A stretch of 64,000 nt of DNA, taken from NCBI GenBank assembly GCA_020073605.1, contig JAIQEW010000003.1, forward strand, positions 124,001 to 188,000, in the 5' to 3' direction. Of the stretch, positions 48,745-54,414 are shown piece after piece. The DNA is from Terriglobia bacterium (lineage in GTDB: Bacteria > Acidobacteriota > Terriglobia > Acidiferrales > UBA7541). The notes beneath the pieces are model-generated. The model ran no database searches and was not told where the DNA came from. It saw only the letters and a list, made by a program, of their open reading frames with translations. A program made the translations under genes and the position numbers. The number at the start of each line of letters is the position of its first letter. The stretch's first letter is position 1.

Positions 48745-49614
48745 ATGAAGCCAAAGGTTGGATTCATTGGACTGGGATTGATGGGCGGGCCGATGGCGCG
48801 GAACCTGCTGCGGGCCGGGTTTCCGCTCGTCGTCTGGAATCGCACAAAATCGAAGGCGGACGATCTGGTTCGAGACGGGGCCACGCTCGCGGCGGATCCG
48901 CGCGAAGCGGCGGCGCTGGCCGACGTCCTGATCACGATCGTCAGCGATCCGCCCGCGCTCGAGGAAGTTCTTTTTGGGCCGAGAGGCGCGTTCGAAGGGC
49001 TGCGCGCCGGCTGTACGCTTGTGGATTCGAGCACGATCTCTCCCGATCTGGCGCGGCGCGTGGCGAAAGCGTGCGGCGAACGAGGCGTCGATTTTCTCGA
49101 TGCGCCCGTCACGGGCGGCACGTGGGGCGCGGAGAAGGGTGAACTCGTTTTCATGGTCGGCGGCAAGGCCGAGGTGCTCGATCGCGCCAAGCCGGTGCTC
49201 GAAGCCATGGGCAAGAAGTTCATTCTCCTGGGACCGAACGGCGCGGGCCAGACGGTGAAACTTGGCATGAACCTGCTGCTTGCGTTGCAGGTGGACGCGT
49301 TCGCGGAAGCGTTGGCGCTCGTGACCGCGGCGGGCGTCCCGGCCGAGCGGCTGATGGAGGTGCTTCAATCGAGCATGGCTCGCTCGGGTGTGCTCGACGT
49401 GAAAGCGCCGCTGATGGTGAAGGGCGAGTTTCCCGCGAGTTTTCCTCTGAGGCTGATGCACAAGGACCTGCGTCTTGCGCTCGAGCTGGCCCACGCGAAC
49501 GGAACAAAGCTGCCGGCCGCCGAAGCTGCCTACACGGCGTACAGCGCCGTCAAGGCCGCGTCGAAAGACGATCCCGATTTCGCCGCCGTCGCCCGATTTT
49601 GGAAGCAGGGGTGA
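48745..49614 (+). CDS. NAD(P)-dependent beta-hydroxyacid dehydrogenase (3-hydroxyisobutyrate dehydrogenase family)
   Basis: The 289-residue product has the cofactor motif GFIGLGLMGGPMARNLL at residues 6-22, the substrate-binding FLDAPVTGGTWGAEKGEL and the catalytic Lys in GQTVKLGMNLLLAL. Members reduce tartronate semialdehyde, methylmalonate semialdehyde or similar short 2-hydroxyacid partners; the sequence alone does not pick one, and glyoxylate reductase-type relatives are equally possible. ATG 48745 is preferred (GGGAGA eight bases upstream) over ATG 48730. Confidence 0.9.
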   Translation: MKPKVGFIGLGLMGGPMARNLLRAGFPLVVWNRTKSKADDLVRDGATLAADPREAAALADVLITIVSDPPALEEVLFGPRGAFEGLRAGCTLVDSSTISPDLARRVAKACGERGVDFLDAPVTGGTWGAEKGELVFMVGGKAEVLDRAKPVLEAMGKKFILLGPNGAGQTVKLGMNLLLALQVDAFAEALALVTAAGVPAERLMEVLQSSMARSGVLDVKAPLMVKGEFPASFPLRLMHKDLRLALELAHANGTKLPAAEAAYTAYSAVKAASKDDPDFAAVARFWKQG

Positions 49615-49700
49615 TCCTCCTTCGCGATAAAGCTGCTACGGAGGACAGGGGGGAGTGGCGGCGAACCGCGAGTACCCGCCACGGCGGGTGCAAAGCGAAT

Positions 49701-49783
49701 ACATGCTGCGAAAACTTCAGCGCAAGTGTAGGCGTTCCGCGCTGACTTTTTTTCGGCGGGATTAAAATCCCGCCCTTCTACCC
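49701..49783. repeat. REP-like element, copy A
   Basis: The copy starts ACATGCTGCG and ends with a perfect nine-pair palindrome (49755-49763 with 49766-49774, GGCGGGATT/AATCCCGCC) followed by CTTCTACCC. Copy B at 50038-50120 aligns along its length. Confidence 0.65.
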
Positions 49784-49866
49784 AGAGGCTGCGCGGCTTC
49801 GCTTCACGTCGGTGCTCCTGCGATCCGTCACTGCAAAACCGTCTTCGCAAGGATCGAAAAGTGTGT

Positions 49867-49922
49867 CGAGTAGTTGGTGCCACTTTCCTTTGTTTTCTGT
49901 GACTTACGACCACAACTACTCG
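49867..49922. repeat. Long-spaced inverted repeat
   Basis: CGAGTAGTTG at 49867-49876 and its exact reverse complement CAACTACTCG at 49913-49922 flank 36 bases. Weaker complementarity continues outside (AAGTGT against ACACTT). It could fold as a stem in RNA, or be a small mobile-element remnant. Confidence 0.6.
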
Positions 49923-50037
49923 GCATGGTGTGACACTTCTTTTGGCAATATTCGAGCCCCGGAATTGATGCGAGAGAAGTGACCGGAACAGAGAAGCAGG
50001 GACGAGGAGTGAGGCGCGAGGGACGGGAACGGCGAGC

Positions 50038-50120
50038 ACATGCTGCGAGAAAGACAGCACAAAGGTAAGCGCTGCGCGCCGGCGTCTTATGTCGGAGCTG
50101 AAGCTCCGACCCTCCTAAGG
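50038..50120. repeat. REP-like element, copy B
   Basis: It aligns with copy A from ACATGCTGCGA onward and ends with its own perfect nine-pair palindrome (50091-50099 with 50102-50110, GTCGGAGCT/AGCTCCGAC) followed by CCTCCTAAGG. The palindrome sequence differs from copy A, but position and pairing are kept. Confidence 0.65.
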
Positions 50121-50263
50121 CCGGAAGCGCGCTCCGATAGAACCTGCGCGTCGGGTGCGTCTGATTCAGTTTTCAAAGAGCGTCGAACCCTCGTCAAGAG
50201 GGCCAGGAAAATTGGCGATTAGAACGGGTCGCCGTCATCTATTTTCAGCAGGTTAGGGGCGTT

Positions 50264-50290
50264 TCTAATCGCGGGAGTGGCGATTAGAAT
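50264..50290. repeat. Ten-pair hairpin with a nearby direct copy of one arm
   Basis: TTCTAATCGC (50264-50273) pairs perfectly with GCGATTAGAA (50281-50290). A further copy TGGCGATTAGAA lies at 50214-50225, matching 50279-50290. The same 12-base word is thus present twice directly and once inverted within 77 bases. Confidence 0.6.
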
Positions 50291-50524
50291 TGGGCGCAGA
50301 GAGGTTGGGAAGCAGTCGTTTACGCCGCGTAGTTGTCCGCCGAGTTCTCGCCTTCGATTCTGTTTGTCCATCTCCGTTCTCAACTTTCAAGTCTTCAACA
50401 TCCTTTTCACGCTGGCACATTGTTGCGCACGCGTCAAATGGTTGCTGGTGTGGACTTCGGCCAGGCAAAGGTATCTCGTCCTTAGAGACCAAGTGCCAGA
50501 TGGTGGATCACCTGCCGGTCACAG

Positions 50525-53500
50525 CTACTTCGTGGGTGAGTACCGCATCTCCTTTGTCCATTCGCGGTGATTCCAAAAGTCGAAGCGCACGTTCATCTTC
50601 ATAGATGCTTGGCCTTGCCAAAACCAGATGCCTTGGACCTTATTCGAATAGAGGAAGATTTCATACGTGGGCCCGAATGAAAGGCTGGGCCAAACTTTGA
50701 AATTCAAGGCTGTTTCGGAGTCGGAACGGAACCGCGTATCGATGGGTTTATCGTCTCTGTTGTTGAAGAAATAGTTGCCGTCCTCGTCGATCTGCCAGGA
50801 AACGGTGGAGGAGAAAGGCACGACGGTATGCCAATTCCAATACACGCCGTTCACGCGAAGGTTCGGCCGCCGTAGCAACAATTGATCCGTGTTGTCGGGA
50901 TTGGGAATCAGGCGGACAGCATTCAGTTCGCCGCCGCTTTCCAGGCCCGCCTCGATCCAGCTTACGCGGTCCACCCAGCGAAGGCCCGCTCTGGGCAGGA
51001 GAAGATAGGTGCGGCTCAGGTCGAACGGCTGAGCGACAGATGGTTTTCCGCTCGATGCCAGGGATTCGATGAAACCCGGCAGGGGGTTCCAGAGCTGCGT
51101 CTCGGTGTGAAATGTGAATACCGGCTCGAGATGCGGCAGCTTCCGATTGCGTACGTGCAATGCCAGGCCTGTATCCGTCGACCACAGATTTTGCTTCTGG
51201 CTGATGATCCGGGCCGCGCTGGGCTGCCCGGTGTACTGTGCGGAGTAGCGAAGTTCTTCGGCCTGGAAGAGCTCGACGTGTTCCCATGAATAGCTGTACT
51301 TGGCCGGGAGATCGAACTGGAGTGTGTGTCCACGCGGCGTGGTGAGCTGCGTGACGGGGCTGCCGGGAAAAAGGTTCTTGAGCTGTGCATCCGAGAACTT
51401 ATGATTGACGGAAGAAAAACTAAGGCTCGCGTTGTTCAGCGTCAAAAGACTCGGGTTCGAGGGATTGATGCGGAGCGCACCGAGGCCTCTTTGCTGCACA
51501 GCGTTATCGAGCGCCGTCGTAGCTGTAGTGGACGCCATCTCCCCTGGAACCTTGTGGACCAGGTGAGGATCGATCCAGTCGTGAAACTGCTGTGCGGATG
51601 TCTGTCCGGCACGATTATCGGATGGCTTTATTTCGAGGGCGTCGAAGTAGTTTTCGCGATCAATCCGTTGCTGACATTGACTGCCCGAGGCGTACGGCAT
51701 GATCGCACGGCAGGCGACAGAACTTATGGTTTCAAGTCTCTTGGGGAAATCACCGGGTACTCGAGGTGGCTTAACAGCGGCGGCCGCAAGGTCGGGGTAA
51801 CCCGTGTCTCCGACGCCGATGTAGTCAGAGGTTGCGACAACGTACAAGCGATTCTTGTCAAGCGGGACATCATTCACCAGATACTCATCCCGGTCGGCGT
51901 CATGCCGGATGCCGACATAGACGAGAGAACGCTGCCGCTCGTCGGTCAACGAGAGTGCCGAAGCGTCGTCGGCCTTGTATTTGTCAGACTGCTGGAGGGC
52001 CTGGATCAACGCGCTACCGGGCATATTGAGTGGGATCAGAAAGTCACCTTTCCACAGGATTCGGTCGAGTATCTTCTGGAGAGCCCCCGGCGTGACCCCG
52101 GCGTCGTTGACGCCGCTAGGGATGTCGACATAGAAGTCGCGGTCCTGGAGCAAGACGACATCTGCACCAAGTTCTTTCTGGATGGCGCACATCGTGAGTG
52201 TCTTGATTAATTCACTGTTCGATGAAGCTGGTTCCGCCAGCCCGCAGCCGTTCTGTAATGCGGTCTTCGCGGCGTTCCAGAAGACAAGAGGACTCGATGG
52301 GGACTGCGGCACCGAACCGGCACGCAGCATTTCGGAATCAACCGTCCATGCACCCTTAGGGGCGGGATCAACGCTGATGTTGAGCGAACCGATCGGCACG
52401 GGTTCGTCCTGACCGAACGACGTGGGGTCGTATGATTTTGGCACTGCTATGATTCCTTGATAGTCCCGGGGAAAGCTGTCCCCTGGCGTCCAATCGTATG
52501 TGGTTTTGTGAAGGCCGGAGGCCAGCTCCGGATCGGCGGCCGTTATGACTACGTCGAACCCCCCCAGCCGCGTTGCAAGAGCCTGCGCGTGCTGCGGCCC
52601 CATTTGGGCGAGCAGGATTTTGAGTCCGTCAAATCTTTTCCCGTGTTCCTTTTGGTAACACCAGAGGAAGGCGTCAACAGTCTCCCGGATTCCCTCAGCG
52701 GGGTCTCGAACAGCCGCCGTGGTTTTGTAGGGAGCCGGATGGCCTTCTTCATCCACGTTTTGCCACTGCAGGTTCAGGGCTCCGACGTAATCGGGTATGT
52801 CGGGATCAAGCGCGCCGAAGATGGCGACATCCAGAGGCTTACCTTGATCTGGATCGGCTTTAACAAAAGTGTATGGCCGGGGATCCGCAGCCGAAGGCTG
52901 CTGTGACGGAAAGGAGAAGAGAGGCTGATAGACAGAGAAGCGCTGGCAATAGAGTTTGGCGCCGTTTTTGATAGGCGGAAGATTGTCTCCCGTGAGGCAC
53001 AGCCCGTAGTTCTGATTAGGTTGCAGTGGTTTTGGAAACTTTAGGAGAAAGCCGACCGAGTTGCGGTCCATCCAGACGTACCAATCCAGAGGGGTCTGCA
53101 AGCAGGGGGATCCCGCTTCGACGGGGATAGAGTTCGGACGTCCAGGTTCAGCGCTCTGGCACAGATAAACCTTGTTCTGGGTGCTATTGAACTTATCCAC
53201 GATACCTTTGAGGCGAGATGCGTCCTCCGAACACTTGCTGGCGGCTGGGCAACGCCCGCTATTGAGGGTGTTGGCCAGAAAGGCTTTGAGTGCCTGGTCT
53301 GTTTGGGGCTGACCAGCGTTCTCATCGTAGATTAGGCGATACAACATGCGGCTCGAATCGGAGCCATTGGGGTCGAGCTTCATGAGCTTGATGGTGGCAC
53401 CAGGCAGCCAGGGATAAACCTTCTTCCCGTCTGCCGGGGACAACAGTGACGGGAATGGCGGGTCTGACGCAGAAGCAAATTTCGACGGCCAGTGCGGGGC

Positions 53501-54256
53501 GAACCCCAACTTGAATTCATCGTCCGGCAGAGGCTTGTGATCGTCTTTCCATGAAGTGTCGATAATGAGATTGGACGCGAGCATCTGAACGGACTTTCCG
53601 GTTGGATTCGAAGCCAGGAAGCGAGCGAGGTTTCGGAGGCGTTCGGGACCGAAGTAGAAATCGTGCCTGCCCGGGACGACGGCGGTGTAGCCCTCGCGGA
53701 GGAGGAAACATGCGACGTTGTCGGCAGGAATGAGACCCTTGCCGGCGCGCAGGAAGCGCTCGAGGTCCTTCATCGGAGGTACCTCGTCCGCGCGAATCCA
53801 TTTTCCTGCCGGCTGTGTGTGCAAGACTAACCCCGGGTTTGCAAGGTCGTCCGGATACCAAATGTATTGGTCTTTGCCCGCCGGTTGGACCACGCCTTTA
53901 GTCGGCTTGAGGGGATCCGGAGGCGGATCGAAGGTGCGCGCCTCGAATCGGGGGGCGAAGTTGTCGCCGGTTCCGACAAGGATGGCGTTGGGCGCGGATT
54001 GACGCGCTGCATCAAATGCCTTCGCCTCCCGGCTGCCGTTGTCGAGCGCCGATGAGTCGCAGGTATCCGCGACTTTGCCCGACTGAAGGTCGGGCGCACG
54101 GAAGTAGCCCATTAGACGGCCGGTATAAACGATTTGGGTCTGACTTTTCCGGGTCGCGTCAGCAGGCCCCGAATCGCCAGCGCGGAGCCCCGTGGGAATG
54201 GAAGAGAAGAGGATGACGGCTAGACCCATGGCACGCAAGACAGTCGTCTTGAGCAT
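50525..54256 (-). CDS. Secreted 5'-nucleotidase-like protein, catalytic residues lost, with C-terminal beta-rich domain
   Basis: The 1243-residue product has a signal peptide (about 1-27, GLAVILFSSIPTGLRAG). The metallophosphatase-like part (about 40-590) aligns by pattern with UshA-type enzymes, but ligands are changed: TGRLMGYF (45-52) where TNDxHGxF is expected, GTGDNF (95-100) keeping its Asp, GRHDF (196-200) in place of GNHE, and ITAADPE where a GHxH is expected. A nucleotidase C-terminal-type region (about 610-850, VGTGYPDL-like SDYIGVGDTGYPD) follows, then a beta-rich segment of about 300 residues (950-1243). ATG 54256 has GGAGG six bases upstream. Activity is doubtful; a binding role is possible. 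It stands alone. Confidence 0.78.
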   Translation of the reverse strand: MLKTTVLRAMGLAVILFSSIPTGLRAGDSGPADATRKSQTQIVYTGRLMGYFRAPDLQSGKVADTCDSSALDNGSREAKAFDAARQSAPNAILVGTGDNFAPRFEARTFDPPPDPLKPTKGVVQPAGKDQYIWYPDDLANPGLVLHTQPAGKWIRADEVPPMKDLERFLRAGKGLIPADNVACFLLREGYTAVVPGRHDFYFGPERLRNLARFLASNPTGKSVQMLASNLIIDTSWKDDHKPLPDDEFKLGFAPHWPSKFASASDPPFPSLLSPADGKKVYPWLPGATIKLMKLDPNGSDSSRMLYRLIYDENAGQPQTDQALKAFLANTLNSGRCPAASKCSEDASRLKGIVDKFNSTQNKVYLCQSAEPGRPNSIPVEAGSPCLQTPLDWYVWMDRNSVGFLLKFPKPLQPNQNYGLCLTGDNLPPIKNGAKLYCQRFSVYQPLFSFPSQQPSAADPRPYTFVKADPDQGKPLDVAIFGALDPDIPDYVGALNLQWQNVDEEGHPAPYKTTAAVRDPAEGIRETVDAFLWCYQKEHGKRFDGLKILLAQMGPQHAQALATRLGGFDVVITAADPELASGLHKTTYDWTPGDSFPRDYQGIIAVPKSYDPTSFGQDEPVPIGSLNISVDPAPKGAWTVDSEMLRAGSVPQSPSSPLVFWNAAKTALQNGCGLAEPASSNSELIKTLTMCAIQKELGADVVLLQDRDFYVDIPSGVNDAGVTPGALQKILDRILWKGDFLIPLNMPGSALIQALQQSDKYKADDASALSLTDERQRSLVYVGIRHDADRDEYLVNDVPLDKNRLYVVATSDYIGVGDTGYPDLAAAAVKPPRVPGDFPKRLETISSVACRAIMPYASGSQCQQRIDRENYFDALEIKPSDNRAGQTSAQQFHDWIDPHLVHKVPGEMASTTATTALDNAVQQRGLGALRINPSNPSLLTLNNASLSFSSVNHKFSDAQLKNLFPGSPVTQLTTPRGHTLQFDLPAKYSYSWEHVELFQAEELRYSAQYTGQPSAARIISQKQNLWSTDTGLALHVRNRKLPHLEPVFTFHTETQLWNPLPGFIESLASSGKPSVAQPFDLSRTYLLLPRAGLRWVDRVSWIEAGLESGGELNAVRLIPNPDNTDQLLLRRPNLRVNGVYWNWHTVVPFSSTVSWQIDEDGNYFFNNRDDKPIDTRFRSDSETALNFKVWPSLSFGPTYEIFLYSNKVQGIWFWQGQASMKMNVRFDFWNHREWTKEMRYSPTK

Positions 54257-54414
54257 CGGATGCCTCCAAGTGGTTGTTGCGTTAGAAGCCGCGCGAGGAA
54301 AGGTACAGTTACTTATCTAATAAGTCAACTACTTCATATAAACGAAGATTCGGCGGCGGAGGGCGTCCTTCGCGACTGTCCATTCCCACGAACTATGCTT
54401 CTTATTTGTAAGGA

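Follow-up and report, generated by a model that had tools for sequence, protein, structure and literature searches.

In the window (the whole 64,000-nucleotide stretch of Terriglobia bacterium DNA analysed here), one open reading frame on the minus strand fills exactly positions 50525–54256, starts with ATG, has no internal stops and encodes P0001. Its parts are listed below by window coordinates, with residue numbers in brackets.

50525..54256, minus: whole gene for P0001, a 1243-aa pseudo-5'-nucleotidase with a predicted C-terminal barrel (open reading frame, Pfam, profile alignment, fold)
54179..54256, minus: probable Sec signal peptide (1–26; by inspection)
53540..54139, minus: metallophosphatase-like domain, first half (40–239; hhalign and predicted fold, limits approximate)
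54098..54127, minus: YTGRLMGYFR (44–53) in place of xxNDxHGx; Asp replaced by R47, His by M49 (alignment)
53951..53974, minus: GTGDNFAP (95–102) in place of GGDxxQG; D98 kept (alignment)
53648..53677, minus: VPGRHDFYFG (194–203) at the site of xxGNHEFDFG; R197 instead of Asn, H198 retained (alignment)
52847..53539, minus: beta-rich insertion (240–470; predicted fold and alignment, limits approximate)
52337..52846, minus: metallophosphatase-like domain, second half (471–640; hhalign and predicted fold, limits approximate)
52598..52615, minus: LLAQMG (548–553) at the site of xxTHxG; Q551 instead of His (alignment)
52526..52549, minus: VITAADPE (570–577) in place of xxxGHxH; His absent (alignment)
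51791..52189, minus: 5_nucleotid_C domain (690–822) with former substrate loops LLQDRDF, LWKGDF and GDTGYPD (Pfam and motifs)
50528..51469, minus: predicted outer-membrane beta-barrel of about 12 strands (930–1243; model and fold matches)

The insertion of about 230 residues, which an earlier, sequence-only reading of the gene had missed, sits within the phosphatase domain; it carries conserved cysteines (C385, C420 and C437) and looks Ig-like by eye only.

The 5'-nucleotidase-like head and its metal-site positions

The N-terminal part of P0001 had been read as a UshA-type metallophosphatase fold and its middle as the nucleotidase C-terminal domain, and both assignments were borne out. The sole Pfam match of P0001 is 5_nucleotid_C (PF02872, residues 690–822), at E 1.4e-5 and 25.7 bits against a cut-off of 23.6; a search of NCBIfam gave no match. 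At E up to 1, PF02872 was matched by 24 of the 26 family heads and PF00149 (Metallophos) by none; by comparison, P0003, an Acidobacteriota 5'-nucleotidase with intact motifs (G276), matched PF00149 at E 8.5e-12. Profile–profile alignment by hhalign of the 26 heads with seven Acidobacteriota 5'-nucleotidases gave a probability of 98.8 (pairwise E 9.2e-17) over 449 columns spanning both domains. It paired TGRLMG with NDIHG, GTGDNF with GGDVLQ, PGRHDF with IGNHEF and AQMGP with THLGV, and the GHTH stretch of the nucleotidases fell beside a gap close to AADPE. This approach superseded a MAFFT alignment of a family pair with one nucleotidase, in which the N-terminal part came out misaligned. The reference nucleotidases, classed as genuine by motifs only, were P0003 and six loci (L041, L045, L047, L048, L049 and L052) from 14 examined; L053 (part masked) and seven other loci, in which the frame picked was not the nucleotidase, were left out. 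One of them, L052:358-2184 +, has GDHTD at the GHxH position and intact motifs elsewhere. The predicted head fold had UshA, CD73 and SoxB among its best solved-structure matches, and in sequence searches of the PDB an eight-row profile matched UshA at E 0.026 and P0001 alone gave one chance-level match (E 2). Judged as a UshA-type protein, P0001 has the 5_nucleotid_C domain and the N-terminal metallophosphatase fold and lacks a PF00149 match, the set of dimetal ligands with the catalytic His, and the substrate motifs.

Eight metal-binding or catalytic positions were followed, defined by the residue numbers and ligand list of UshA. P0001 keeps two of them, D98 and H198, and no member of the 26-row alignment keeps more than three. 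Counts at the N-terminal motifs are out of 25, since one row lacks its N terminus. The first-motif His and the GNHE Asn are absent from all 25 members, and a basic residue (Arg or Lys) takes the place of the first-motif Asp in 16/25 and of the GNHE Asn in 20/25. The THxG His survives in one of 26 members, with Gln (Q551) in the other 25. Neither GHxH His was found in any of the 26, although this placing is the least sure, because hhalign has a gap there and the tally comes from an ungapped reading after the preceding strand. Members that retain the first-motif Asp (3/25) or the GNHE His (13/25) may, judging from the alignment, bind one metal weakly. All three motif changes noted previously (TGRLMGYF, GRHDF and ITAADPE) are thus present, the Asp of GTGDNF is kept as D98 (Asp in 24/25), and the losses extend across the family; the profile alignment places no intact ligands elsewhere. 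Two details were new, namely the loss of a further ligand (the THxG His, now Gln551) and the retention of H198 in GRHDF.

The substrate side of the cleft has changed as well. In what we call subfamily I, to which P0001 belongs, the second-domain loops read LLQxRD for NxGxxR, LWKGD for LPFxN and GDTGY for GGDGY, and D707 is invariant (26/26). Because substrate loops and metal motifs are both replaced, the cleft appears rebuilt on both sides. The residues that are now nearly fixed (Y44, T45, D98, D199, Q551, R706, D707, W735, K736, D738 and Y820) probably lie in one cleft, by homology to the UshA loops that face metal and substrate. Columns at most one residue from the former ligands had a mean pairwise identity of 0.62, against 0.28 for the rest of residues 40–640 (insert included), a value reached by 50 of 20000 random placements; with two, three or four neighbours per side, 13, 18 and 17 of 20000 did as well. 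This signal holds only when one to four neighbours on each side are counted: the eight ligand columns alone had an identity of 0.44, as high as or lower than 2472 of 20000 random placements, which is not significant. In the C-terminal domain, the substrate loops, with limits drawn after viewing the alignment, had an identity of 0.58 versus 0.27; that of the beta-rich insertion was only 0.24. In the three closest pairs, head dN (0.068–0.093) was well under dS (0.30–0.41), which argues for purifying selection on the head. The family thus combines homology to enzymes, missing essential residues and purifying selection, as pseudoenzymes do; the inactivity itself we infer.

For the beta-rich tail that had been seen after the nucleotidase part, structure modelling predicts an outer-membrane barrel. 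Its model (residues 930–1243) has about 12 strands, with a pLDDT of 73.6 and a pTM of 0.62. Fold matches included the autotransporter barrels NalP, EspP and EstA, and OmpG, NanC, FadL-type and BamA barrels matched equally well; identity to the barrels listed was 4–13 percent. The modelled strand number may agree with the 12-strand barrel of type Va autotransporters, given this pLDDT and pTM and with autotransporter and other barrels tied among the fold matches. From sequence and model, the tail would anchor the protein in the outer membrane.

Family distribution and a second subfamily

A search with the single protein found one match in 61 genomes, the window's own, with none in 19 same-genus genomes or in 41 others. 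Across the class, a two-row profile gave matches in 10 of 399 genomes, counting the window's own and one fragment, and again in none of the 19 same-genus genomes. An eight-row profile matched 18 of 237 genomes in group f7 (17 without G777) and 10 of 300 in group f11 (9 without G900); G777 and G900 were excluded as members, having matched at E 7.0e-4 and 6.3e-4 through the C-terminal domain only, in frames of 515 and 516 aa. The genome_contigs collection gave no relative with the single protein and one with the two-row alignment, L008, from a Bryobacterales bacterium (Terriglobia, Acidobacteriota in the NCBI taxonomy) and counted as the same gene as G645:C452. Plasmids, searched in protein mode, contained no family member, and neither did viral contigs. 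The alignment of 26 members, which have long open frames, draws on 25 genomes, as G760 carries two diverged copies (L103 and L107). Kept outside the alignment were the copies of G736 (stop-interrupted, on two contigs) and G911 (stops), a fragment in G500 (139-aa frame) and the C-terminal pieces L114 (G806) and L076 (G878), and four members cut by contig ends (L113, L066, L069 and L071) were retained. The interrupted copies (L039:7448-9838 and L083/L091, in G736 and G911) are perhaps decayed or misassembled.

In a tree of the 26, the window protein and that of G314 (f11) formed a pair (support 100/100) that fell on the f7 side, with its 18 sequences; the six other f11 members lay apart, the f7 group was weak (75/56) and the root is arbitrary. 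The gene has a GC content of 57.6 percent, against 62.6 elsewhere in the window, and only 13 of 603 gene-length windows were as low, all overlapping the gene. The dip, to about 57 percent against about 63 percent elsewhere, covers window positions 49300–54300, that is, the gene and its downstream gap. At most other loci, the GC of the family gene is close to that of its flanks. Horizontal acquisition of the window gene is likely. The window genome has four other PF00149 matches and no further match to 5_nucleotid_C.

Searching the phylum with the head profile matched 32 of 396 genomes, mostly weakly and in the C-terminal domain; the 32 include the window's genome and G314, and proteins were examined for L117, L118, L124, L126 and P0003 (G276). 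Three of these loci (L117:472-2829 +, L118:556-2817 + and L124:517-2805 +), from genomes of the same phylum as the window and another class, encode proteins of 753–785 aa that we call subfamily II. Their phosphatase motifs are replaced by TSGLxG, DAGRTxxPYAESR, F(A/V)PxxMD and xHSxG, and the second domain retains NxGxxRPV and GGD, with 5_nucleotid_C matches of 1.2e-11 to 3.4e-16. In the tail, DUF3078 matched P0011 above the cut-off and P0012 below it, and did not match P0010. An hhalign comparison of subfamily II with the nucleotidases (probability 99.5, E 3.1e-23) paired an Arg with the Asp retained in subfamily I, and a His with that of THxG. The alignment with subfamily I (97.3, E 2.4e-11) began in the second domain and reached the first part of the tail. 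Common descent of the head–tail fusion in the two subfamilies is plausible from these alignments, by which the site is lost by a different route in each. A further search of 177 genomes matched 43, with a whole-length match only in G074; from this search, L159 has intact motifs and the L144 stretch has no open reading frame of at least 700 aa.

Neighbouring genes were compared across 25 stretches with flanks of uneven length. Setting aside the family gene and internal frames, no neighbour cluster occurred in more than five stretches. One cluster of five held frames that by eye were sensor-kinase-like and response-regulator-like, and one of three held sulfatase-like frames (also by eye); both were judged too general. 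In one genus clade (L035, L036, L100 and L114), genes for a cytochrome and a reductase adjoin the family gene; Pfam names, checked there for L036 and L100 only, were multihaem cytochrome c in both and nitrite/sulfite reductase in L036, where the cytochrome gene lies tail to tail with the family gene. L108 (L108:423-4509 +) and L109 have in common two genes of about 600–700 aa near the family gene; in L108 the nearer carries TrkA_N and the other has no Pfam match. No neighbour was taken as a functional link, and none recurs often enough to suggest a ligand. Promoter and terminator counts were near the shuffled level.

Candidate function and competing explanations

The sequence-only reading had proposed a surface pseudoenzyme that perhaps binds nucleotides or nucleic acid. 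The pseudoenzyme part stands, on sequence and family-wide losses; the surface part stands in part: the tail is a predicted outer-membrane barrel, and the head may face either outward or into the periplasm. Binding of nucleotides is possible for P0001, and nothing points to nucleic acid. We favour, at about an even chance of being right, an envelope pseudoenzyme that holds a small anionic ligand reversibly between its domains and captures or senses it instead of hydrolysing it. A putative signal peptide would export the protein, the barrel of about 12 strands would anchor it in the outer membrane, and the head would retain the two-domain shape of UshA and CD73. With most dimetal ligands gone, water-activated phosphate cleavage should be lost, as judged from the alignment. 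The cleft would have been rebuilt rather than abandoned: with two former ligand positions mostly Arg or Lys, basic side chains may stand in for the metal ions and hold an anionic, perhaps nucleotide-like, ligand. Capture or sensing would occur at the outer membrane, with ligand–barrel coupling as a candidate next step. In the accessible parts of PMC10454023 and PMC8475336, UshA is described as rotating its domains by 96 degrees and binding the base with its second domain, which would make a clamp of this kind natural. Subfamily II, whose nucleoside-binding domain retains NxGxxR and GGD beside replaced phosphatase motifs, would count in favour of binding; subfamily I has lost even the nucleoside motifs, which leaves room for a ligand other than a nucleotide.

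The same rebuilt loops could instead belong to a still-active enzyme using metal-poor or metal-free chemistry, with D98, D199, Q551, R706, D707, K736, D738 and Y820 forming a different catalytic site. They are the best conserved part of the phosphatase region, and their near-fixed Asp, Arg, Lys and Tyr exceed what a purely structural role needs. However, Gly, Pro and aromatic residues make up much of what is conserved, the candidate acid/base H198 occurs in only 13 of 25 members, and hydrolases of this fold are not known to function once the metal site is gone; we think such an enzyme unlikely. We consider equally improbable a structural, adhesive or scaffolding protein whose barrel displays the head as an autotransporter displays its passenger, the old cleft serving as a protein–protein contact. 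The NalP, EspP and EstA matches and the large insertion with its conserved cysteines would suit such a protein, but the other barrels match as well, and conservation sits in the ancestral active-site loops rather than in the insertion. The sporadic occurrence of the family, with stop-interrupted copies in G736 and G911, might suggest the product of a decaying pseudogene; the long open frames of 26 members, purifying selection in close pairs and the recurrence of its motifs in heads with 20–38% identity to the window head largely refute this, and we regard it as very improbable.

If the preferred reading, reversible binding by an envelope pseudoenzyme, is true, the family offers a route from hydrolase to metal-free receptor that can be followed through many diverged sequences, and Acidobacteriota gain an outer-membrane binding protein open to testing. 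A bolder and rather unlikely extension is a new class of outer-membrane receptors or receptor-channels in which a two-domain, nucleotidase-derived clamp, with Arg or Lys for metals, would take an anionic, nucleotide-like ligand and a 12-strand barrel in the same chain would serve uptake or signalling, remodelled separately in at least two Acidobacteriota subfamilies.

Comparison with known systems

UshA, CD73 and NadN combine PF00149 with PF02872. P0001 differs from them in that most metal ligands are replaced, PF00149 is undetected, the substrate motifs are changed, about 230 residues are inserted and an outer-membrane barrel is predicted at the C terminus; annotation by its lone Pfam match would imply a working 5'-nucleotidase. 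SoxB, a sulfate thiohydrolase, has its fold in common with the P0001 head, retains the dimetal site and has no barrel. The barrels of NanC, OMPLA and the autotransporter translocators NalP, EspP and EstA have 12 strands; they resemble the tail model in fold and approximate strand number, and sequence comparison showed no family that includes both.

Among the titles and opening lines of abstracts in the open-access literature, with subscription journals and preprints outside this scope, we found no example of an outer-membrane barrel joined to a dead 5'-nucleotidase. In PMC10454023, Acidobacteriota are tabulated as lacking ushA-like and cpdB-like genes under that paper's criteria, whereas our analysis found 5'-nucleotidases with intact motifs in this phylum. 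A parallel in architecture, as far as the accessible part of PMC10454023 describes them, lies in the LPXTG-anchored AdsA and Nt5e of Gram-positive bacteria, which, like P0001, join a nucleotidase head to a C-terminal envelope anchor; these, however, are enzymes anchored in the cell wall, whereas P0001 has lost most of its metal site and is predicted to be anchored by a barrel.
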